Assembly: GCF_017814975.1 (NCBI RefSeq)
Contig: NZ_JAGIQA010000007.1
Location: 124,001-188,000 of the forward strand
Length of the DNA: 64,000 nucleotides
Reading direction: 5' to 3'
DNA from: Cupriavidus consociatus
GTDB taxonomy: Bacteria; Pseudomonadota; Gammaproteobacteria; Burkholderiales; Burkholderiaceae
Under the pieces are notes generated by a model. The model had not been told where the DNA came from. It did no database searches and saw only the letters and a list, made by a program, of their open reading frames with translations. Made by a program: the position numbers and the translations under genes. Shown here in pieces: positions 2,364-63,350 of this stretch. Numbering within the stretch: position 1 is the first letter of the stretch; every line of letters starts with the position of its first letter.

Positions 2364-2981
2364 CTACTTGCGGGTCTTGCGAGTGGCGCCGGGCAGCGCG
2401 GCCATCATGCTGGCGAAATATTTCAGCGCGTCGGTGGTGCCATTGCGGTCGCCTGTGGTAACCAGATCGAGCAGCAAGCCGCGCATGGTCGCCAGTTCGA
2501 CGCGGGCGCGCAGCCGCGCCTCGGATTCGGTGAGGCCCATGTCGTGGCGGAAGCGTTCCGCCAGCATCGTGGTCCAGCTGCCGACCACGTCTTCCAGGAA
2601 GCCGCTGAAGCGCTCGCGGTCGCGGATGGCCTTGCCGTAGATCTCGAACAGCAGCTGCATGATCGGCAGATAGGACGGCGCGGCATATCGCTCCCATGCG
2701 GCTTCCATCGCAGCCTGCGGGTCCATGCCGTCGACCACCACGTTGTGCCGCGCGTCCTGCTCGGCATGCCGGATCCGGTGCAGCAGGGCCTGCCAGAAAC
2801 CATCGGCCGATCCGAAGTAGTAGATCAGCATGCGGTGGCTGGTGCCGAGCGCGTCGGCGACGCTGCGCAGCGACAGGTCGCCGAGGCCGTTGGCGAGAAC
2901 GTGTTCGGTGGCGGCGTCCAGGAGCTGGAGCGCCTGCTCGCTGGCGGAGCGGTCGGGGACGGTGGCTTTGGCTTTCGGCAT
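2364..2981 (-). CDS. TetR/AcrR-family transcriptional regulator
   Basis: 205 residues with an N-terminal TetR helix-turn-helix: LLDAATEHVLANGLGDLSLR, then VADALGTSHRMLIYYFGS, the family recognition-helix pattern ending in YYF. The rest is a helical ligand-binding domain. The ATG at 2981 is chosen because it gives the usual 15-20 residue tail before the HTH; an in-frame TTG at 3011 would add ten residues, and neither start has a clear ribosome-binding site. It lies upstream of and parallel to the Bug/M24 operon, separated by the palindrome at 2277-2292, so it probably represses that operon. Inducer unknown, likely the transported acid or a derivative. Confidence 0.88.
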   Translation of the reverse strand: MPKAKATVPDRSASEQALQLLDAATEHVLANGLGDLSLRSVADALGTSHRMLIYYFGSADGFWQALLHRIRHAEQDARHNVVVDGMDPQAAMEAAWERYAAPSYLPIMQLLFEIYGKAIRDRERFSGFLEDVVGSWTTMLAERFRHDMGLTESEARLRARVELATMRGLLLDLVTTGDRNGTTDALKYFASMMAALPGATRKTRK

Positions 2982-3239
2982 GGAGGGACTGTGCTGGGGC
3001 ACCGCCAGCAAGCCGCGGCAGTGTAGCGGCTACGGATTCTACGTCATGGATCGGCGTCGCCCCGCGCGCTCGGTTCGGGCGCATCGGCGCCGTGCTCGGG
3101 CCACTGATCGGCAGGTGGCTCGCCGGCGCGAACCCGGGGGATGCACTGGAAGATTCATGCGTTCATCGTTCCCGCGGGAATCGCGGCGCTGTTCGCGCCG
3201 CTGGTTCCCAAGACCCGCTTACCACCTGCTTGCACCCGA

Positions 3240-3581
3240 TCAGCGCTGGCCCGCATCGAAGGCCTTCTGCCAGACATCATGGTCCGGCGGATAGACCGCG
3301 TCGAAATGCTCGCGCAGCGCGGCGATCTCCTGCACGATCGCGAACGAAAAGCCCTGGCGGCCACCGCGGTCATCGAACTGCAGGCCGTTCAGGTACTGCC
3401 GGCACCCGACCGCATCGAACCACTTGGCGGCGATGGTATTGATGATCCGGGGAAAGGCACGCCCGAGCTCTACCGGACGGACGGCTTCGGGCAGCTCGGC
3501 CATCCAGCGGATGGTTTCGCGGCGCAGCGTCAGGTCATCGTCGGTGGCGGTCTTGCGGTGGAAGGCTGGGTCTTGCGTCAC
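3240..3581 (-). CDS. Conserved-looking small protein of unknown function
   Basis: 113-residue soluble protein (VTQDPAFHRK...WQKAFDAGQR), not recognised. It is rich in charged and aromatic residues with no membrane segment or signal peptide. A GTG start at 3581 is favoured because GGAGA lies six bases upstream; the longer frame has no ribosome-binding site. Codon use is typical of neighbouring genes and the frame is stable, so it is probably real. It lies downstream of the oxidoreductase gene but separated from it by a strong hairpin (3619-3644), so probably a separate unit. Confidence 0.65.
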   Translation of the reverse strand: MTQDPAFHRKTATDDDLTLRRETIRWMAELPEAVRPVELGRAFPRIINTIAAKWFDAVGCRQYLNGLQFDDRGGRQGFSFAIVQEIAALREHFDAVYPPDHDVWQKAFDAGQR

Positions 3582-3618
3582 GTGAGTCTCCGGGTGCAGC
3601 CGGGAGGATAGCCGATTG

Positions 3619-3644
3619 TGGCCGGACCATGTCAGGTCCGGCCA
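3619..3644 (-). terminator. 10-bp perfect inverted repeat, probable transcription stop
   Basis: TGGCCGGACC and GGTCCGGCCA flank a six-base loop, a perfect 10-bp stem. It sits 35 bases after the stop of the oxidoreductase gene and before the next gene's start. There is no uridine tract, so it may act as an imperfect or mRNA-stabilising terminator. Confidence 0.5.
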
Positions 3645-3679
3645 GCCCGGGCTTTCCCCCGGTTGCACGCCGGCAAGGC

Positions 3680-6600
3680 TCAGGCCGCGGCCCGGCGCGC
3701 CGCCCCGCGATACTGCGCCAGCAGGGCTTCGCGGCGCGCGGCCGCAGCCTGCATGCTGGCTTCCTTGACGTGGCCGTAGCCGCGGATGTCGTCGGGCAAC
3801 GCTGCCAGCGCCAGCGCGGTGTCGAGCTTGTCGGCGCCCAGCGAGGCGGCGAACTCGTCGACCATGGCCAGGTAGTCGGCCACCAGCGCGCGCTCGGCGC
3901 GACGCTCCGCGGTCTTGCCGAACACGTCGAACGCGGTGCCGCGCAGGCCTTTCAGGCGGGCCAGCAGGCGGAAGGCGGTCAGCGTGCGCGGGCCGAAGCG
4001 GCGCTTCACGGGATGGCCCTTGCTGTCGGTCTTGCCCGCATTCGCCAGCGTGGGCGGGGCCAGCCAGAAGTTGAGCTGGTAGTCGCGGCCGGGCTCGCCT
4101 TCGAACTGCGCGCGCAGCTTGTCGAGGAACGCCGGATCGGCGTACAGGCGCGCCACCTCGTACTCGTCCTTGTAGGCCATCAGCTTGGCCAGGTTGCGCG
4201 CCACCGCTTCGGTCAGCGGCAGCTTGCGGTCGGCGCCCAGCTTCTGCTCGGCGGCGCGGATGCGCTCGACCGCGTCGCGGTAGCGCCGGGCGTACGCGGC
4301 ATTCTGGTAGTCGGTCAGCATTGCCTCGCGCTTGCGGATCAGCGTGTCGAGGGTCTGCGGCAACGCCACCACCTGCGCAGCCGGCGCACTCGGCGCATTC
4401 GGCAGCAGCGCCTTGACCGCTGCCTCGCCGTGGTGCGCGAGATACCGGCCCCATTCAAAGGCCTGCCGGTTCTTGTCGACCGACACGCCATTGAGTTCGA
4501 TCGCGCGCAGCAGGCTGGCATGCTGCAGCGGGATCCAGCCCTTCTGCCAGGCAAAGCCGAGCAGCAGCGGGTTGGAGTAGATGGCATCCGCCAGCAGCGT
4601 CACCGCCCAGGCGCTGGCGTCGATAAAGGCGCTGGCCTCGCCCACGCTGTTGCGCAGGTCCTGCTCGGCGCTGGCGCCGGGGAACTGCCACTTCGGGTTC
4701 TTGATGAACTCGGCGGTCGGGGTGTTGGCGCTGTTGACCACCGCGGCGGTCACGCCGTGCCGGGTCTTGGACAGCACCTCGGCCGAGGCCGAGACGATGG
4801 CGTCGCCGCCGATCACCAGCCGCGCATCGCCGGTGGCGATACGCGTGGCATGCAGGTCGTGCGGCGCCGGTGCGATCTGCACGTGGCTGATCACCGCCCC
4901 GCCCTTCTGCGCCAGGCCCGCCATGTCGAGCACGGTGACACCCTTGCGCTCCAGGTGCGCGGCCATGCCAAGCAGGCCGCCGATGGTCACTACGCCGGTG
5001 CCGCCAACGCCTGTCACCAGCACACCGTACGGCCGTTCCAGCGCGGGCAGCGAAGGCATCGGCAGCGCCTCGAAATCGGCGCCTGCACCCTTGCCGCCCG
5101 CCGCCGCCGGCTTGCGCACCTGCGCGCCCTCGGCGGTAACGAAGCTGGGGCAGAAGCCGTTGACGCAGGAGAAATCCTTGTTGCACGACGACTGGTTGAT
5201 GCGGCGCTTGGTGCCCAGTTCGGTCTCCAGCGGCTCCACCGACAGGCAGTTGGACTTGGCCGAGCAGTCGCCGCAGCCTTCGCAGACCGCATCGTTGATA
5301 AAGGCGCGCTTTGCCGGATCCGGATACGTGCCGCGCTTGCGGCGCCGGCGCTTCTCGGTGGCGCAGGTCTGGTCGTAGATCAGGATGGTGACGCCCTCGG
5401 TGTCGCGCAGCTCCAGCTGCACGGCATCGAGCTGGTCGCGATGGAACACGGTCACGCCGGACGGCAGCATGCTGCCGTCACCATACTTCTGCGGCTCGTC
5501 GGTGACGACGACCAGCTTCTTCGCGCCCTCGGCCAGAACCTGGTGGGCGATCTGCGGCACAGTCAGCACGCCGTCGATGGGCTGGCCGCCGGTCATCGCC
5601 ACCGCGTCGTTGAACAGGATCTTGTAGGTGATGTTGGCCTTCGCCGCGATCGAGGCGCGGATCGCCAGCAGGCCCGAGTGGAAATACGTGCCGTCGCCCA
5701 GGTTGGCGAACACGTGCTTGTCACCGGTGAAATGCATCTGGCCGGTCCACGCCACCCCTTCGCCGCCCATCTGGCTGAAGGTGTCGGTATTGCGGTCCAT
5801 CCACAAGGTCATGTAGTGGCAGCCGATGCCGGCCAGCGCGCGCGATCCTTCCGGCACGCGCGTGGAGGTGTTGTGCGGACAGCCCGAGCAGAACCAGGGC
5901 TTGCGCTCGGCCGAGATGCGTGGCTGCGCGGCCTCGCGCTCCTTGGCCTCGATCACCGCGACGCGCGCGGCAATGCGGGCGCGCACGGCTTCCGGCAGGT
6001 CGAAGTGCTCCAGCCGCCGGGCGATGGCCTTGGCGATCAGCGCCGGCGACAGCTCGTAGTGCGCCGGCAGCAGCCAGTTGCCGCGCGGCACTGACCATTC
6101 GCCGCCGTCGTTGCCGCGCTGGTCGAACTTGCCGAACACCTTGGGCCGCACGTCCTCGCGCCAGTTGTACAGCTCTTCCTTGAGCGCGTATTCCAGGATC
6201 TGGCGCTTTTCCTCCACCACCAGGATTTCTTCCAGGCCGGTGGCGAATTCACGCGCCCCGTGGGCCTCCAGCGGCCACACGCAGCCTACCTTGTAGACGC
6301 GGATGCCGATGCGGGCACAGGTCTCGTCATCGAGGCCGAGGTCGGCCAGCGCCTGGCGCACGTCCAGGTAAGCCTTGCCGGCGGTCATGATGCCGAAGCG
6401 CGCATTGGGCGAGTCGAGCACCACGCGGTTCAGGCGGTTGGCGCGGACATAGGCAAGCGCCGCATACCACTTGTGGTCGAGCAGCCGCGCTTCCTGTTCC
6501 AGCGGGGTATCGGGCCAGCGGATATTGAGGCCGCCGGCCGGCATGGCAAAGTCTTGCGGCAGCACCACCTGCACGCGGTCGGGGTCGATCTCGACCGAGG

Positions 6601-7258
6601 CGGTCGACTCGACCACGTCGGTGACGCACTTCATCGACACCCACAGGCCGGAATAGCGGCTCATGGCCCAGCCATGCAGGCCGTAGTCGAGGTATTCCTG
6701 CACGTTGGCCGGGTACAGCACCGGGATGCCCGCAGCCTGCAGCACGTGCTCGGACTGGTGCGCGACCGTGGAGGACTTGGCGGCGTGGTCGTCGCCGGCC
6801 AGCAGCAGCACGCCGCCATGGCGCGACGAGCCGGCGGAATTGGCATGCTTGAGCACATCGATGGACCGGTCCACGCCCGGGCCCTTGCCGTACCACATCG
6901 AGAACACCCCGTCGCGCGAGGCGTTGGGGAACAGGTTGACCTGCTGCGAACCCCACACCGCGGTGGCGGCCAGGTCCTCGTTGACGCCGGGCTGGAACAC
7001 CACGTCGCTGGCAGCCAGGTGCGCCTTGGCCTTCCACAGCGCCTGGTCGACGCCGCCCAGCGGCGAGCCGCGGTAGCCGGAGATAAAGCCGGCCGTGTTC
7101 AGGCCGGCGGCGCGGTCGCGCGCCTTCTGCAGCATCGGCAGCCGGACCAGCGCCTGGACGCCGCTCATGTAGACGCGGCCTTTGTCGAGGGTGTACTTGT
7201 CGTCCAGGCTGGCGCTGGCCAGGGTGTCGAGCAGGGCGTGGGGTAGGGGTGCGTTCAC
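3680..7258 (-). CDS. Indolepyruvate ferredoxin oxidoreductase-type fused 2-oxoacid oxidoreductase
   Basis: 1192-residue single-chain enzyme combining the alpha (pyrimidine/TPP domain), ferredoxin-like and gamma modules that are separate subunits in archaeal enzymes. Such enzymes decarboxylate aryl- or branched-chain 2-oxoacids to acyl-CoA, passing electrons to ferredoxin. Visible parts in order: GYRGSPLGG near the N terminus; CSGCPHNTS and the TPP-binding LGDGTYFHSG; a cysteine cluster CEGCGDCSAKSNC with later Cys residues for iron-sulfur centres; then VTGVGGTGVVTIGG and AGLAQKGGAV of the gamma domain. GTG start at 7258 preceded by GGAGACATC. It diverges from a LysR gene that probably controls it. 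Substrate likely indolepyruvate or phenylpyruvate, by family only. Confidence 0.92.
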   Translation of the reverse strand: MNAPLPHALLDTLASASLDDKYTLDKGRVYMSGVQALVRLPMLQKARDRAAGLNTAGFISGYRGSPLGGVDQALWKAKAHLAASDVVFQPGVNEDLAATAVWGSQQVNLFPNASRDGVFSMWYGKGPGVDRSIDVLKHANSAGSSRHGGVLLLAGDDHAAKSSTVAHQSEHVLQAAGIPVLYPANVQEYLDYGLHGWAMSRYSGLWVSMKCVTDVVESTASVEIDPDRVQVVLPQDFAMPAGGLNIRWPDTPLEQEARLLDHKWYAALAYVRANRLNRVVLDSPNARFGIMTAGKAYLDVRQALADLGLDDETCARIGIRVYKVGCVWPLEAHGAREFATGLEEILVVEEKRQILEYALKEELYNWREDVRPKVFGKFDQRGNDGGEWSVPRGNWLLPAHYELSPALIAKAIARRLEHFDLPEAVRARIAARVAVIEAKEREAAQPRISAERKPWFCSGCPHNTSTRVPEGSRALAGIGCHYMTLWMDRNTDTFSQMGGEGVAWTGQMHFTGDKHVFANLGDGTYFHSGLLAIRASIAAKANITYKILFNDAVAMTGGQPIDGVLTVPQIAHQVLAEGAKKLVVVTDEPQKYGDGSMLPSGVTVFHRDQLDAVQLELRDTEGVTILIYDQTCATEKRRRRKRGTYPDPAKRAFINDAVCEGCGDCSAKSNCLSVEPLETELGTKRRINQSSCNKDFSCVNGFCPSFVTAEGAQVRKPAAAGGKGAGADFEALPMPSLPALERPYGVLVTGVGGTGVVTIGGLLGMAAHLERKGVTVLDMAGLAQKGGAVISHVQIAPAPHDLHATRIATGDARLVIGGDAIVSASAEVLSKTRHGVTAAVVNSANTPTAEFIKNPKWQFPGASAEQDLRNSVGEASAFIDASAWAVTLLADAIYSNPLLLGFAWQKGWIPLQHASLLRAIELNGVSVDKNRQAFEWGRYLAHHGEAAVKALLPNAPSAPAAQVVALPQTLDTLIRKREAMLTDYQNAAYARRYRDAVERIRAAEQKLGADRKLPLTEAVARNLAKLMAYKDEYEVARLYADPAFLDKLRAQFEGEPGRDYQLNFWLAPPTLANAGKTDSKGHPVKRRFGPRTLTAFRLLARLKGLRGTAFDVFGKTAERRAERALVADYLAMVDEFAASLGADKLDTALALAALPDDIRGYGHVKEASMQAAAARREALLAQYRGAARRAAA

Positions 7259-7340
7259 GATGTCTCCGTGCTTGTATTCTGATGTCCGGAGCAGTGTAGG
7301 AATCCCGCTGGCTATCGTAAAATCAAGAATTCAAACACCT

Positions 7341-55975: not shown

Positions 55976-56032
55976 CGCATGGCACCTCCGTGGCGCGATC
56001 GGTTGGCTTGCGGCGCAGGCGAGTCCGGCAGT

Positions 56033-57220
56033 CTACGGGCCATCCGCTTCGGCCTGGCGCGGTGCCGCGTGGCTGCGCGGCAGCTTGCGGTGGGCGAGCA
56101 ACAGCAGCGGTGTCGTGGCCATCGACAGCGCAACGACGACCGTGACGACGGAGAGTTGCTCGGCATCGATCAGGTTTGCCGCCTGCGCGGCGCCCATCAC
56201 GACAAAGGCGAACTCGCCGCCCTGCGACAGCAGGATGGCAAAGTAGACGCGATGCTGGCGCGGCAATTCGATCCGGTTCGCCAGGTACATCAGCGCCAGG
56301 AATTTGCCAACGACCAGGGCGACCACCAGCACCGCCACCAGCAGCGGCTTGTTGGCCAGCACCGAGAAATCGATCGACATGCCGACCGCGATAAAGAACA
56401 GGCCAAGCAGGATGCCCTTGAAGGGCGCCATGTCCGATTCGATCTCGTGGCGGCATTCGGAACCCGCCAGCAACAGGCCGGCCAGGAATGCGCCCAGCGA
56501 CATCGACAGGTGCACCACGTGCATCAGCAGCGCGATGCCGATGACCCAGAGCAGCGCGAAGATGGTAAAGATCTCGCGCGTGCCGCTGCGCTGGATCATG
56601 CGCAGCACATACTTCAGCACAAGGCGACCGACCACGACGACCGCCGCGATCATGGCCAGCGCCTTCGCCGCGGAAACCCAGCCGCTCGACATGCCGGCGT
56701 CCACCGCAACCGGCGCAAGCAGCGGCAACAGCGCGATCATCGGAATCGCGGCAATGTCCTGGAACAGCAGGATGCCGAAGCTGGATCGCCCGACGGGCGC
56801 GTCCATCAGCCGGTTCTGCTCCAGGATCGCGATCACCATCGCCGTCGAAGACAGCGACAGCGCGAAGCCAGCCGCCACGCCGACGCGCCACTGCACGCCA
56901 AAGACAATGAAAATCACTGCAAGCAGTGCCGCGCACAGCGCGACCTGGATGCCGCCATAGCCGAAGATGGAGCGGCGCATCGCCCACAGCTTCTCGAATT
57001 CCATTTCAATGCCGATGATGAACATCATCAGCACGATGCCCAGCTCGGACACGTCCATGATCGAGTTGACGTCCGTGACCAGCCTCAGCCCCCACGGACC
57101 GATCACTGCGCCGGCAACCAGGTAGCCCAGCACGGAGCCAAAGCCCAGGCGCACCGACAGCGGCACGGCGACCAGTGCGGCGGCGAGGAAGATTACCGCG
57201 TCAACCAGCAGTTGTTCCAT
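56033..57220 (-). CDS. CPA2-family cation:proton antiporter lacking the RCK domain
   Basis: 395 residues, about twelve helices, of the KefB/KefC/YbaL type: GYLVAGAVIGPWGL near the N terminus, ALSLSSTAMVIAILEQ and LLFQDIAAIPMIALLP with the antiport Asp. The chain stops at residue 395, where KefB/C would continue into an NAD-binding RCK domain. A Na+/H+ or K+/H+ exchanger without nucleotide gating is expected. A GGGAGGGGACTG ribosome-binding site precedes the ATG. Confidence 0.9.
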   Translation of the reverse strand: MEQLLVDAVIFLAAALVAVPLSVRLGFGSVLGYLVAGAVIGPWGLRLVTDVNSIMDVSELGIVLMMFIIGIEMEFEKLWAMRRSIFGYGGIQVALCAALLAVIFIVFGVQWRVGVAAGFALSLSSTAMVIAILEQNRLMDAPVGRSSFGILLFQDIAAIPMIALLPLLAPVAVDAGMSSGWVSAAKALAMIAAVVVVGRLVLKYVLRMIQRSGTREIFTIFALLWVIGIALLMHVVHLSMSLGAFLAGLLLAGSECRHEIESDMAPFKGILLGLFFIAVGMSIDFSVLANKPLLVAVLVVALVVGKFLALMYLANRIELPRQHRVYFAILLSQGGEFAFVVMGAAQAANLIDAEQLSVVTVVVALSMATTPLLLLAHRKLPRSHAAPRQAEADGP

Positions 57221-57434
57221 CAGTCCCCTCCCGATGAGATGACGGGGCGAGAGCCCGGGTCATTTGGCGATGCCTCGCTGCCAGGCGGGAAAATGCCGGC
57301 TTCTGCGCGAGGTAGCGGACTGGATACGTAATACATCAGTTCCACGCCGAAGTACAAGCCGGACGGCGCCGCCGGCTCGCGTTACGTTATGCACCCGGCG
57401 GCACACGCGGCAGTCGTGGCAGCCGCACCACCGC

Positions 57435-58340
57435 TCAGTCCAGCCGCTCTAACAACGTCTTGCCGAATTCGTGCAGCAGCCCGATCAGCCTGTCCGCCAC
57501 CGGAGAAAGTGGCGCGCCCTTGCGGAATGTCACGCCGAAGTTGCGCACCAGCGTGGCCGCCGGCAGCGGCACTTCCACCAGATCGTCATCGCTTGCGCGC
57601 AAGGTGCGCCGCGAGACAAAGGTCAGCAGTTCGGTATCGGCCACCACGCGCGGGATCAACGGGATCGAGTTGGTCTCGATCTGCACCACCGGCCGCGGCA
57701 GGTTGCGCGATTCCATGGTCTGGTCGAGCCAGTTCCGGCTCGGCACCGCGCGGTTGGGCAGCGCCCAGCGATAGCCGGCCAGCGCCTCCAGCCCGGGCTT
57801 GCGCACGCGGAAGATCGGGTGCCCCTTGACCGCCGCGACCACGACGGTGTCCTTCAGCAGCGTCTCGCAATGGAATTCGTCATCCTGCTGGTCCGGCACG
57901 AAGCCGAGGATCACGTCCACGCGCCCTTCGCGCAGGTCGTCGCGCAATTCGTAGTTGTGACGAATGCTCAGTTGCAGCACCACGTTGGGGGCTTCGCGCA
58001 GCAGCATCCTGCAGATGGGCGGCAGCAGGTATTCCGCGCCGAGCGGTCCGCTGCCCAGCCTTACGGTGCCTGCCACGCCCCGCGCGATGGCGCCGACCTC
58101 GTCACGGACCAGGTCCGCTTCCTGCAGCAGGCCGGCGGCGCGGGCGCGCAGCGCAACCCCTGCCGCGCTCAGTTTCTGGCCCCGGCCGTCGCGCTCGAAC
58201 AGCGCCGCGCCGAGCGAGGCCTCGAGCCGGTCGACCGCCTTGGTCAGCGTCGGCTGGCTGCGGTGCACCAGTTCGGCGGCGCGGCGGAAGTTGCCGGCGT
58301 TGGCCACGGCCAGGAAGTACTTGAGGTCACGCAGGTCCAT
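57435..58340 (-). CDS. LysR-family regulator
   Basis: 301 residues: HTH at 1-60 (MDLRDLKYFLAVANAGNFRR, VHRSQPTLTKAVDRLEASLG), effector domain about 90-295. The ATG at 58340 follows ACGGAGCGCC. Divergent from the hydroxyacid-dehydrogenase/Bug chimera and its Ldh2 partner, which it presumably regulated before the fusion arose and may still regulate. Confidence 0.92.
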   Translation of the reverse strand: MDLRDLKYFLAVANAGNFRRAAELVHRSQPTLTKAVDRLEASLGAALFERDGRGQKLSAAGVALRARAAGLLQEADLVRDEVGAIARGVAGTVRLGSGPLGAEYLLPPICRMLLREAPNVVLQLSIRHNYELRDDLREGRVDVILGFVPDQQDDEFHCETLLKDTVVVAAVKGHPIFRVRKPGLEALAGYRWALPNRAVPSRNWLDQTMESRNLPRPVVQIETNSIPLIPRVVADTELLTFVSRRTLRASDDDLVEVPLPAATLVRNFGVTFRKGAPLSPVADRLIGLLHEFGKTLLERLD

Positions 58341-58470
58341 GGCGCTCCGTGGCATGCAGCCGGCCGCAGCACGACTGATTACTTTCGTTTATCAAAACCA
58401 AAAAATTATAAGCTGGACGGCATCGAACCGGCGGGAAAGAATCGCTGCATTCCCCTAACCGCTCCGAGTC

Positions 58471-59673
58471 ATGCCCTACACCGTCCTCGTTACCGCACCG
58501 CGCCTGGCAGGCGCCGGCGTCCGCCTGCTGGAAGCCGCCAATGCCAGCGTCCACTACCTGCCCGACGCCGACAGCCCGCAGGCGCTGCATGGGTTGCTCC
58601 GGACGTTGCCGGTGGATGCGGGGATCTCGCGCACGGTCGCACTGACCGGCGCGGCCATCGACGCCTGCCCGACGCTGAAGGTGATCTCCAAGCATGGCGT
58701 CGGCGTCAGCAACATCGATGTCGCCGCCGCCACCGCACGGGGCATTCCGGTCTATGTGACACCAGGCGCCAATGCGCAGTCCGTGGCGGAACTGACGCTG
58801 GCGCTGATGTTCGCGGCGGCGCGTCGCGTGCCGTGGATGGATCGCGAGCTGCGCGCGGGCCGTTGGTCGCGCGCGCAGGACGGCGTGGAACTGCAGGGCC
58901 GCACCATCGGGCTGGTCGGCTTTGGCCAGGTGGCGCAGCGCGTCGCGCGGGTGTGCCTGGCGCTGGGGATGCGCGTCGCGGCATTCGATCCCGCACTGGC
59001 CGGGGCCGCGGCACGCCCCGCCGATGTCGACTGCTGCGATTCCCTGGATGCCCTGCTTGCCGCCAGCGACGTGGCCGTGGTACTGGTCGTGCGTCACGAT
59101 TCACCGTTCCACACCCTCGCCGACTTCCTGCGGCAAGCCAGGGCGCGCAGCGGCGAGACGGGAATCGCACAGGCCGGCAACGGCACGGTCGGACACCTGG
59201 CCGGTGAAATGCTGGCGCGGCGTGCCGGGGTCCGGGTCATGCAGGTGCCATACAAGGGCGCGGGCCCGGCCATGAACGACCTGCTGGGCGGACAGGTGCC
59301 GGCTTACTTCGGCAATACGGTCTCGGTGATGCCGCAACTGGCCGCGGGCAGTATCCGTGCGCTGGCGGTGACCTCTGCGCAGCGGCTGTCGGCGCTGCCG
59401 TCGGTACCGACTGTCGCCGAACAGGGCTTCGCCGGCTTCGAGGCCACCACCTGGCTGGGCCTGGTCGCGCCGGCAGGCTTGCCGGCGGACATCACGGCGA
59501 AGCTGTCCGCCGCCACGCTGCAGGTGCTGGCGCGTCCTGACGTCCAGCAGCGCCTGAAGCAGGAAGGCAGCGTCGCGACGCCGACCTCGCCAGCGGCTTT
59601 CGCCGCGCATATCCGCGCCGAACACGCCAAGTGGGGCGCGCTGATCCGAGAGGCGCAGATCAAGCTGAGCTGA
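58471..59673 (+). pseudogene. In-frame chimera: 2-hydroxyacid dehydrogenase N-terminal half fused to Bug receptor C-terminal half
   Basis: 400 residues. Residues 1-200 are a D-isomer-specific 2-hydroxyacid dehydrogenase: substrate-domain start, KHGVGVSNIDVAAATARGI, then the NAD motif GLVGFGQVAQ (147-156), stopping at ALLAASD. From about 201-206 the sequence becomes a Bug receptor from its middle (VVLVVRHDSPFHTLADFL, VMQVPYKGAGPAMNDLLGG) to its C terminus. The catalytic Arg/Glu/His of the dehydrogenase and the receptor's signal peptide and first lobe are gone. A deletion between two adjacent genes best explains this; it probably encodes no working enzyme. Junction near 59068-59089. Confidence 0.88.
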
Positions 59674-59708
59674 TGCGCGCGCTTGCCCGACTCCCCCTCT
59701 TTTCAGGT

Positions 59709-60776
59709 ATGACCGTGGACACGAACCTGCCGCCCTACTCCTCACTCCTGCAAGCCGTGACCGACATCTTCGCGGCCTACCTGCCCGCCGGCGATGCCGC
59801 CTACGTTGCCGGGTGCCTGGTCGACGCCGACGCGCGCGGCGTGGCCTCGCACGGCATCGGGCGCATCCCGGTCTATACCAGGCGGCTGCGTCTGGGCCTG
59901 GTCAATCCCACGCCAACGCTGGCGGTGACGCCTGGCGACGGTGCGACGGCGCATGTCGACGGGGACAATGGCATGGGCTACATCGTCGCCCGTAAAACGA
60001 TGGATGAAGCGATCGCGCGCGCGCGCCGGCATGGCATCAGCCTGGTGCTGGCCTCGCGCAGCAATCATTTCGGGATGGCGGCGACGTACCTGCAGCAGGC
60101 GCTCGACGCGGGGCTCGGCGCGCTGGTGCTGACCAACGCACCGCCGCTGATGCCGGTGTGGGGCGGCCGCACGCCGTTCCTCGGCACCAGCCCGTTTGCC
60201 TTTGCCGCGCCGGCGCGCGGTACGCCAATCGTGCTGGACATGGCGACTTCGGTGGTGGCCTTCGGCAAGATCCGCCGCGCCGCGCGCCGCGGCGAAGCCA
60301 TCCCGCCGGACTGGGCGCTCGACGCCAGCGGCCAGCCCACCACCGATCCCAAGGCCGCCATCGACGGCGTGGTGCTGCCGATGGCGGGACCCAAGGGATC
60401 CGGGCTCGGGCTGATGATGGAGTTGATGGCGGGCGTGATGTCTGGCGCTGCTTTCGGCGGCCAGGTGCGCAACCAGAACAGCGACTTCACGCAGCTGCAG
60501 GACGTCGGGCATGCATTTATCGCATTCAGGCCCGATGCGGGGCTGCCGCTTGGTGACTACTTCACGCGCGCGGACGAACTGGTCAGCCGCGCCAAGGCCT
60601 CGCCCCTCGCCGACGGCTTCGATGCGATCGCGATGCCCGGCGAGCGCGAAGCGGCACAGGCGCTACGCGCGCGCAGCGAGGGGCTGCAGGTATCGGCGCT
60701 GGACCTCGAAATGCTGGAAGCCGAGATCGGCCTGGCGCGAGCTATCGCAACACCCGGCACTGCTCGCTCAACATGA
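59709..60776 (+). CDS. Ldh2-family malate/L-lactate-type dehydrogenase
   Basis: 355 residues of the YlbC/ComC/malate-L-sulfolactate dehydrogenase family: GVASHGIGRIPVYTRRL near the N terminus, VLASRSNHFGMA with the catalytic His, and PMAGPKGSGLGLMMELMAG for NAD(H) binding. It oxidises a 2-hydroxy acid. The ATG at 59709 has CAGGT before it; an earlier ATG (59673) overlaps the chimera stop. Together with the 2-hydroxyacid dehydrogenase half upstream it recalls the stereospecific pair (SlcC/ComC) of sulfolactate degradation, but this is only a parallel. Its end overlaps the CoA-transferase gene by 35 bases, tail to tail. Confidence 0.88.
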   Translation: MTVDTNLPPYSSLLQAVTDIFAAYLPAGDAAYVAGCLVDADARGVASHGIGRIPVYTRRLRLGLVNPTPTLAVTPGDGATAHVDGDNGMGYIVARKTMDEAIARARRHGISLVLASRSNHFGMAATYLQQALDAGLGALVLTNAPPLMPVWGGRTPFLGTSPFAFAAPARGTPIVLDMATSVVAFGKIRRAARRGEAIPPDWALDASGQPTTDPKAAIDGVVLPMAGPKGSGLGLMMELMAGVMSGAAFGGQVRNQNSDFTQLQDVGHAFIAFRPDAGLPLGDYFTRADELVSRAKASPLADGFDAIAMPGEREAAQALRARSEGLQVSALDLEMLEAEIGLARAIATPGTARST

Positions 60777-61434
60777 GCGGCGCCGCACTCAGCGCCGCCA
60801 CCGCATCGAAGGACACGCCTTCGGCCAGGCCGGTGACCAGCAGTCCGCCGCCCGGCTGCACGTCGATCACAGCCAGGTCCGTATAGATGCGGTCCACCAC
60901 GCCGAGGCCGGTAAGGGGATAACTGCAGTGCTCCACGATCTTGGGCTGGCCGTCGCGCGTGACATGCTCCATCATCACGAAGAGCCTGGCCGCCCCCGCC
61001 ACCAGGTCCATGGCGCCGCCCACGGCCGGGATCGCGTCGGGCTCCCCGGTCGACCAGTTGGCCAGGTCGCCCCCGGCGGAGACCTGGAAGCCGCCCAGCA
61101 CGGTGACGTCGAGATGACCGCCGCGCATCATGGCAAAGGACACCGCATGGTCGGAGATGGAAGCGCCCGCCAGCAGCGCGATCGGCTCCTTGCTGGCGTT
61201 GATCAGGTCGGGATCGGCCGCGCCGTCGCGGATCACCCGGCCCATGCCAAGGATGCCATTCTCGCTGTGCAGGATGATCTCCCGGTCCGGCGGTAACTGG
61301 TCCGACACCAGGGTCGGCATGCCGATGCCGAGATTGACGTAGCTGCCGTCCGGAATATCGGCCGCCACAATGCGCGCCATGTCATGGCGGCTGAGCCGGG
61401 GCAGTTGCTGGAACAGCGGCATTTCACGCGGCAT
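60742..61434 (-). CDS. 3-oxoacid CoA-transferase, subunit B
   Basis: 230 residues, the catalytic half of a class I CoA transferase: Glu58 in HSENGILGMG forms the acyl-Glu intermediate; NLGIGMPTLV and GGFQVSAGGDLANW are typical of PcaJ/AtoA/ScoB. GGAGAACGCC precedes the ATG. It overlaps the A-subunit gene by 11 bases, so the two are translated together. The acid may be acetoacetate, beta-ketoadipate or another 3-oxoacid. Its last 35 bases overlap the convergent Ldh2 gene. Confidence 0.93.
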   Translation of the reverse strand: MPREMPLFQQLPRLSRHDMARIVAADIPDGSYVNLGIGMPTLVSDQLPPDREIILHSENGILGMGRVIRDGAADPDLINASKEPIALLAGASISDHAVSFAMMRGGHLDVTVLGGFQVSAGGDLANWSTGEPDAIPAVGGAMDLVAGAARLFVMMEHVTRDGQPKIVEHCSYPLTGLGVVDRIYTDLAVIDVQPGGGLLVTGLAEGVSFDAVAALSAAPLMLSEQCRVLR

Positions 61435-62101
61435 GGCGTTCTCCGGTCTGCACCACGGCATGGACGAAGATGCCAGGCGTCATCACTTGCTCGGGCATCA
61501 GCGTGCCCAGCGGCACGATTTCATCGACCTGGACAATGGTGTGGCGCGCAGCGGTGCACATCACCGGCCCAAAGTTGCGGCCCGCATAGCGGTAGACGAG
61601 GTTGCCCCAGCGATCCGCGCGATGTGCCTTGACCAGCGCAAAATCGCCGCGCAAGGGTTGCTCCAGCACATAACCTGTGCCATCGATCTTGCGCGTTTCC
61701 TTGCCCTCTGCCAGGGCCGTGCCATACGCGGTCGGCGTAAAGAACGGCCCCAGCCCGGCGCCGGCGGCGCGCATGCGCTCCACCAGCGTGCCTTGCGGCA
61801 CGCATTCCAGCTCGACCTTGCCGGCGCGATAGGCTTCGATAAAGGCTTCGGCATTGCTCGAACGCGGATGGGAGCAGATCACCTTGCGCACAGCCCCGGC
61901 GCGTATCAGCGCCGCAATGCCCGTGTCGCCGTTGCCGGCATTGTTGTTGACGATGGTGAGATCGCGCGCACCGCATGCGAGCAGCGCGTCAAGCAATGCA
62001 CCGGGAATGCCGGAGCCGCCGAAGCCGCTCACCAGCACGGTGGCACCGTCAGTGATGCCGGCCACCGCTTGTTCCAGTGATGCCACAGTCTTGTCGATCA
62101 T
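61424..62101 (-). CDS. 3-oxoacid CoA-transferase, subunit A
   Basis: 225 residues, CoA-binding half: VLVSGFGGSGIPGALLDAL (glycine loop), IVNNNAGNGDTGIAALI and LRGDFALVKAHRADRWGN, characteristic of PcaI/AtoD/ScoA. It follows the Bug receptor by 46 bases on the same strand, and its partner B-subunit overlaps its 3' end. The arrangement receptor-A-B suggests CoA activation of the acid bound by the receptor. Confidence 0.93.
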   Translation of the reverse strand: MIDKTVASLEQAVAGITDGATVLVSGFGGSGIPGALLDALLACGARDLTIVNNNAGNGDTGIAALIRAGAVRKVICSHPRSSNAEAFIEAYRAGKVELECVPQGTLVERMRAAGAGLGPFFTPTAYGTALAEGKETRKIDGTGYVLEQPLRGDFALVKAHRADRWGNLVYRYAGRNFGPVMCTAARHTIVQVDEIVPLGTLMPEQVMTPGIFVHAVVQTGERHAA

Positions 62102-62147
62102 GTTGATGGCCTCGTAGCGGCCAACGTAGCCCCGTTGGCCTGTTGGC

Positions 62148-63140
62148 TTATTGCTGCGGAATGCCGGTGTCCTTGACTACGCGCGCCCAGCGCTCGCGCT
62201 CGCTCTTGATGAAGTTGCCGAAGTGAGCGGGCGTATCGCCGCCGGGCATGCCGCCCAGATCCGCCAGTCTTGCCTTGACCTCGGGCTCGGCGAGGATGCC
62301 GGCCACGGTCTTCTGCAGCCGGCCGATGACCTCCTGCGGCGTGCCGGCCGGTGCCACCAGGCCGAACCATGCGGTCACCTGGAAGTCGTCCACGCCGGCC
62401 TCCTTCATCGTGGGCACGTCAGGCAACTCATGCACGCGGCTGGCGCTGGTCACAGCCAGCGCGCGCAGCTTGCCCGACCGGATATGCGGCAACGAACTGG
62501 GCAGATTGTCCACCATCATGGTGACCTGTCCGGCCACCAGATCGGCCACGGCCGGTGCTGCGCCTTTGTAGGGCACGTGGATGAGGTCAGTGCCAGTGCG
62601 CTTGCGGAACAGCTCGCCGGAAAGGTGGACCGACTGGCCGGTGCCTGAGGAGGCGAAGGAATACTTGCCGGGCTGCGCCTTGGCCAGTGCGACCAGTTCG
62701 GCCACGGTACGGGCCGGCACGTTGGCATTGACCACCAGCACATTGGGCACCGACACGACCATGGTAATCGGCGCAAAGTCCTCCGCGCGGTAGGGCAACT
62801 GGCGGTACAGGCTGTAGTTGATGGCATTGGGCCCGATATTGCCCATCATCAGGGTATAGCCATCGGCGGCAGACTGCCTGAGCGCCTGCGCGCCGATGAT
62901 GCCGCCTCCGCCGGCGCGGTTTTCCACCACCACGGGCTGGCCAAGCAACTCGCCCATGCGCTTGCCGACCAGGCGCGACGCGATATCCGTGGTGCCACCC
63001 GCGGCCGCCGGCACGATCAGCCGGATCGGCTTGTCGGGATAAGCCGCCAACGCTGCGCCTGGAGCTACCGCAACGGCCACGCCAACCGCCCCTGCCACCC
63101 GGGTCGCCACAAGTGCCAGCCCGCCGAGAGCCTGCTTCAT
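62148..63140 (-). CDS. Bug-family periplasmic solute-binding receptor
   Basis: 330 residues with a signal peptide (VATRVAGAVGVAVAVAPGAA) and TctC-fold landmarks: PIRLIVPAAAGGTTDIASR, PVVVENRAGGGG, LIHVPYKGAAPA. AAAGGAGACGAAGG precedes the ATG. First gene of the operon with the two CoA-transferase subunits. The C-terminal half of the chimera at 58.5 kb is a different Bug sequence, so these are separate receptors. Confidence 0.93.
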   Translation of the reverse strand: MKQALGGLALVATRVAGAVGVAVAVAPGAALAAYPDKPIRLIVPAAAGGTTDIASRLVGKRMGELLGQPVVVENRAGGGGIIGAQALRQSAADGYTLMMGNIGPNAINYSLYRQLPYRAEDFAPITMVVSVPNVLVVNANVPARTVAELVALAKAQPGKYSFASSGTGQSVHLSGELFRKRTGTDLIHVPYKGAAPAVADLVAGQVTMMVDNLPSSLPHIRSGKLRALAVTSASRVHELPDVPTMKEAGVDDFQVTAWFGLVAPAGTPQEVIGRLQKTVAGILAEPEVKARLADLGGMPGGDTPAHFGNFIKSERERWARVVKDTGIPQQ

Positions 63141-63175
63141 CCTTCGTCTCCTTTATCGGTCACACCGTGATTCGA

Positions 63176-63237
63176 TGATGGGGTTCCATCACGACATCAG
63201 GGACGATAGATCGACCGTGAGGGCAATGTGAATTCAC
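63176..63237. promoter_or_regulatory. Two palindromes upstream of the Bug/CoA-transferase operon
   Basis: TGATGG-GGTT-CCATCA (63176-63191) and GTGAATTCAC (63228-63237, extended TGTGAATTCACGA) lie 35-97 bases before the receptor ATG. Either could be an operator or, for the second, a T-N11-A LysR-type site. No regulator gene is adjacent. Confidence 0.4.
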
Positions 63238-63350
63238 GATTCGCAAAAGAAGCCTTCGGTCTGACGAAACCCGCGCACCGATTTCCGGCCTCATTGCAGC
63301 GACTTCTGCAACTGCGGACGGATTTGCCTCAGCGACTGCGCGCGCAATGC

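Follow-up and report, generated by a model that had tools for sequence, protein, structure and literature searches.

Layout of the fused reading frame and its surroundings

Within the window, that is, the whole stretch of 64,000 nucleotides of Cupriavidus consociatus that was analysed, the front of a D-2-hydroxyacid dehydrogenase is joined to the back of a Bug/TctC receptor in a single open reading frame, placed between a divergent gene for a LysR-type regulator and a gene for an Ldh_2-family dehydrogenase (Table 1). In the front part Pfam recognizes 2-Hacid_dh (PF00389) and 2-Hacid_dh_C (PF02826), followed by TctC (PF03401), and the domains at both sides of the junction are cut: the NAD-binding domain covers positions 1-103 of the 178 of its profile, versus 1-178 in the intact protein of G043 (the highest-scoring and closest congeneric genome at this locus, with about 91% DNA identity), and the TctC match covers profile positions 66-272 of 274, versus 3-272 in G043. 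What is retained of the receptor is the second lobe and the C-terminal part of the first. The best NCBIfam profile for the dehydrogenase part is PGDH (phosphoglycerate dehydrogenase), with 141 bits against a cut-off of 454, and the same profile comes out best, likewise below that cut-off (277 bits), for the intact dehydrogenase of G043. In comparison with the intact G043 genes, the DNA identity is 90% for the dehydrogenase part and 92% for the Bug part.

Table 1. Features at the fusion locus, in positions of the window
Feature	Position	Strand	Remarks and basis
LysR-type regulator, divergent, intact	57435..58355	-	Pfam; 96% protein identity to G043
In-frame fusion ORF	58471..59673	+	400 codons plus stop; ORF list, Pfam
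D-2-hydroxyacid dehydrogenase 5' part	58471..59073	+	codons 1-201 of ~330; Pfam, NCBIfam
Deletion junction	59071..59079	+	codons 201-203, GTG GCC GTG; alignment to G043
Bug/TctC receptor 3' part	59077..59670	+	last 198 of 324 codons; Pfam
Ldh_2-family dehydrogenase, downstream, full length by Pfam	59709..60776	+	93% protein identity to G043, residues 1-343 of 355

This architecture agrees with a preliminary description of the locus, made from the sequence alone, according to which a dehydrogenase N-terminal half runs without a stop into the second half of a Bug receptor. The losses that it had claimed for both partners are also found. Arg234, Glu263 and His282 of the dehydrogenase (G043 numbering), which are invariant in all 10 aligned orthologues and have the catalytic role in this family, lie beyond codon 201 and are gone from the fusion. 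In the receptor, it is the signal sequence and the start of lobe 1 that are missing; as judged by reading the sequence, the fusion has no export signal at its N-terminus, the frame opening with that of the dehydrogenase.

Regarding the neighbouring genes, the ATG at 59709 was chosen here as the start of the Ldh_2 gene (the ORF list has a GTG at 59631), and with it the gene begins 35 bases past the stop of the fusion. A promoter and terminator scan of positions 58300-58500 found none. Directly beside the fusion lies a second difference in gene content with respect to G043: positions 60739-63329 of the window carry, on the minus strand, a pair of CoA-transferase genes (60742-62101) and a gene for a Bug receptor (62148-63140), none of which has a counterpart at that place in G043. 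There, some 800 bp that include a gene of the Polyketide_cyc2 family are found instead.

The operon in relatives and the missing 1581 bp

The intact operon of G043 consists of the divergent LysR gene, the dehydrogenase gene, a gene for an RraA-like aldolase, the Bug gene and the Ldh_2 gene. In the blastn alignment with this genome, window positions 56001-59074 match at 91.1% and positions 59077-60738 at 91.7%, and between the two blocks G043 holds 1581 bp, a multiple of three, the junction codon GCC being assignable to neither side. The missing DNA comprises the 3' part of the dehydrogenase gene, the whole RraA-like gene (complete in G043, with 234 codons, PF03737) and, signal sequence included, codons 1-126 of the Bug gene. 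When the region 58356-59745 was searched against 60 congeneric genomes, its own among them, G043, G003 and G040 each gave a split match on the same contig and strand, with a first piece ending at query position 718-719 and a second one starting at 720-722. The preliminary description had proposed aligning the locus in close relatives to find an intact pair of genes, and the intact operon of G043, with its additional 1581 bp at the junction, is what this alignment returned. As the first of two readings, it had also offered a deletion between neighbouring genes. The deletion is supported by the split locus in these three genomes and the gene order in other genera; the direct neighbourhood does not, as the RraA-like gene stood in between and was lost as well.

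As for that gene order, tblastn of the G043 proteins placed the divergent LysR, dehydrogenase, RraA-like and Bug genes in succession in G043, G003 and G040. In a wider scan of contigs, the order dehydrogenase-RraA-Bug was present at 8 of 75 loci, one of them (L081) on the same contig as G040 and the others (L083-L089) from Variovorax, Acidovorax, Xylophilus and Bordetella; the same tblastn gave no LysR match at L088. The parental operon is conserved and probably catabolic. Its Bug gene is also damaged in G003 (locus L062, 4364-5335, minus strand), with an in-frame stop after codon 181, the remainder aligning in full length. G007 (locus L064) has the LysR, dehydrogenase and RraA-like genes, the latter at 6619-7314, but the search turned up no close orthologue of Bug downstream of them, the nearest Bug gene being 36% identical and on the other strand.

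The missing DNA was also sought elsewhere in the genome's own assembly and is absent from it. The best match (72% over 307 bases) lies in another Bug gene. For the lost parts of the dehydrogenase and aldolase genes, the top match has 69% identity along about 262 bases when ranked by E-value, and 83% along 87 bases when ranked by identity. Both observations expected of a deletion remnant, the intact arrangement in close relatives and the absence of the missing DNA from the own genome, are thus available. A deletion driven by repeats or microhomology was considered and rejected: the 30-base surroundings of the two breakpoints in G043 have no word of 7 bases or more in common, and the longest one that they do share, of 6 bases, is 20-30 bases distant from the breakpoints. 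No repeat-mediated mechanism is therefore claimed here.

Distribution, substitution pattern and predicted product

The same architecture in many genera, which would speak against the preliminary description, was sought in the genus, in the family and at 79 individual loci. Apart from the own locus, no second fusion appears among the matches listed for the 60 congeneric genomes, nor among those listed for 299 genomes of the family (own included) searched with a junction-region query of 93 residues, for which the own locus scores 187 bits and the best other match listed 54 bits. The 79 loci examined (4 in the genus and 75 others), where a fusion was defined by a match of the fusion protein whose start lay before residue 150 and whose end lay beyond residue 260, hold none either. 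Four of them (L061, L090, L091 and L131) have matches of that span, which their coordinates place in each case on a single Bug gene, and the match at L089, from residue 2 to 224, continues as an ordinary dehydrogenase. The only near-identical DNA in the plasmid collection is a 59-base match in Cupriavidus sp. EM10, and a thin search of the literature, at the level of titles and the openings of abstracts, found no report of a dehydrogenase-Bug fusion. Among the genomes searched, the fusion is known from one only.

The open frame in itself is unsurprising, since about one third of random joins are in phase: among 20,000 joins of the G043 genes, drawn within codons 150-250 of the dehydrogenase and 80-170 of the Bug gene, 33.6% were in phase and 27.7% gave a frame of at least 380 codons.

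Between the window and G043, the dehydrogenase part shows a dS of 0.305 and a dN of 0.038 (omega 0.12), and the Bug part a dS of 0.243 and a dN of 0.026 (omega 0.11). When the nonsynonymous changes are polarised with G040, the window branch receives 6 in the dehydrogenase part and 4 in the Bug part, and the G043 branch 7 in each, with 3 and 0 ambiguous; if G003, G040 and G007 are required to agree, the figures for the dehydrogenase part become 4, 7 and 5, respectively. Neither half shows an excess of amino-acid change. Under a rough Poisson model, neutral evolution since the split from G043 would have left about 66 and 52 nonsynonymous changes on the window branch, versus the 6 and 4 counted, and an old pseudogene decaying neutrally was rejected as unlikely. 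In the same rough calculation, the fit is already poor if constraint was absent for one tenth of the branch (P about 0.001, rising to 0.01 when the ambiguous changes are included), but not if it was absent for one twentieth (P 0.02, or 0.10). The substitution pattern thus points to a deletion that is recent relative to the G043 split or, less likely, to a chimera under constraint, two situations that one genome cannot separate. Recency is preferred, since the chimera is devoid of essential parts of both proteins and was not found elsewhere.

Regarding the protein that might be made, PMC5812351 describes TctC receptors as two-lobed, with about 300 residues in the mature form, domain 1 spanning approximately residues 1-100 and 230-300 and domain 2 residues 100-229. 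It gives them two loops that coordinate the substrate, one of which connects the first strand to the first helix. As 126 codons are lost and the signal sequence would account for some 24 of them, the break would fall near residue 100 of the mature receptor, and on this description the chimera has lost the loop that follows the first strand. An AlphaFold2 model of the chimera has a mean pLDDT of 61.1 and a pTM of 0.41, residues 101-200 being its worst hundred, and that of the intact G043 dehydrogenase (10 alignment rows) a mean pLDDT of 82.1 and a pTM of 0.63, a weak comparison, as each relative in the 19 rows of the chimera alignment (the chimera, 10 dehydrogenase parts and 8 Bug parts) covers one half only and the control is the dehydrogenase alone. 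The product would presumably stay in the cytosol and, judging from the missing residues and domains, would be inactive both as a dehydrogenase and as a receptor. The alternative raised in the preliminary description, a cytosolic acid-sensing chimera, finds no positive support here, the signal sequence, about 100 first residues of the mature receptor and the three invariant dehydrogenase residues being gone and the model poor.

Origin of the fusion and comparison with known systems

As read from the comparison with relatives, the event is real but ordinary: an in-frame deletion, specific to this lineage, that spans three genes of an operon. A single deletion of 1581 bp would have removed the end of the dehydrogenase gene, the complete RraA-like gene and the beginning of the Bug gene, its ends coinciding in phase by chance and leaving the 400-codon frame; the function of the three-gene operon would be lost in this lineage, with the LysR regulator and the downstream Ldh_2 gene staying intact, and the product, if translated, would be a cytosolic protein with neither activity. 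We consider this explanation, with an inactive product, highly probable, and regard the fusion as most likely the non-working scar of a recent deletion rather than a novel type of protein.

An error of assembly or consensus, in which the intact operon would be real and the assembler would have dropped the 1581 bp, is unlikely. The assembly does consist of 237 contigs, but the junction lies within a long one (C215:182471-183670, with further matches there beyond 221 kb), none of the other contigs carries the missing DNA, and the lack of shared words around the breakpoints leaves no obvious repeat on which to collapse. Very unlikely as well is that the remnant frame is useful only against polarity on the Ldh_2 gene, in-phase deletions being the survivors: the proximity and intactness of that gene fit such a role, but one join in three would be in phase in any case, and no selection is needed to account for it. 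Least credible, and hardly to be expected, is that a three-gene operon gave rise in one step to a new protein of the cytosol, such as a binding module with a partial nucleotide-binding fold, which the cell expresses and selection maintains. The open frame and the low omega of both halves would suit this, as would a break close to the boundary between domains 1 and 2 of TctC given in PMC5812351. Nonetheless, the low omega is equally explained by a recent event, with changes that predate the deletion; the chimera occurs in one genome only among the matches listed and loci examined, without the three invariant dehydrogenase residues or the N-terminal part of the receptor; and its model is poor next to that of the intact dehydrogenase, with the reservation that the alignment rows cover one half each.

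A diverged Bug-RraA-dehydrogenase cluster with another gene order lies on contig C153 of the same genome (locus L156, about 2757-5321; 45%, 45% and 46% protein identity to G043) and may possibly serve as a functional backup. Of 264 candidate places in the genome, 150 counted as hits of the fusion, almost always through its Bug half, which makes the loss of one Bug receptor unsurprising, and a table in PMC5812351 has five Cupriavidus entries of 98 to 190, read here as counts of TctC homologues. Due to this, the loss of one such operon would be easily tolerated. The case calls for caution, as a deletion scar can take the form of an open frame of 400 codons that matches two families well, and it marks a lineage by the loss of a three-gene step that its relatives have kept.

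Compared with the G043 operon, both halves of the fusion, the LysR gene and the Ldh_2 gene are orthologous, at about 91% DNA identity, and the difference is the 1581 bp that G043 has and the window lacks. With the D-2-hydroxyacid dehydrogenases (PF00389/PF02826) the fusion shares codons 1-201, including the nucleotide loop GLVGFGQVA, but not the invariant Arg, Glu and His or the second half of the NAD domain. Likewise, it shares with the Bug/TctC receptors (PF03401) the second lobe and the C-terminal part, but neither the signal sequence nor the N-terminal part of lobe 1.
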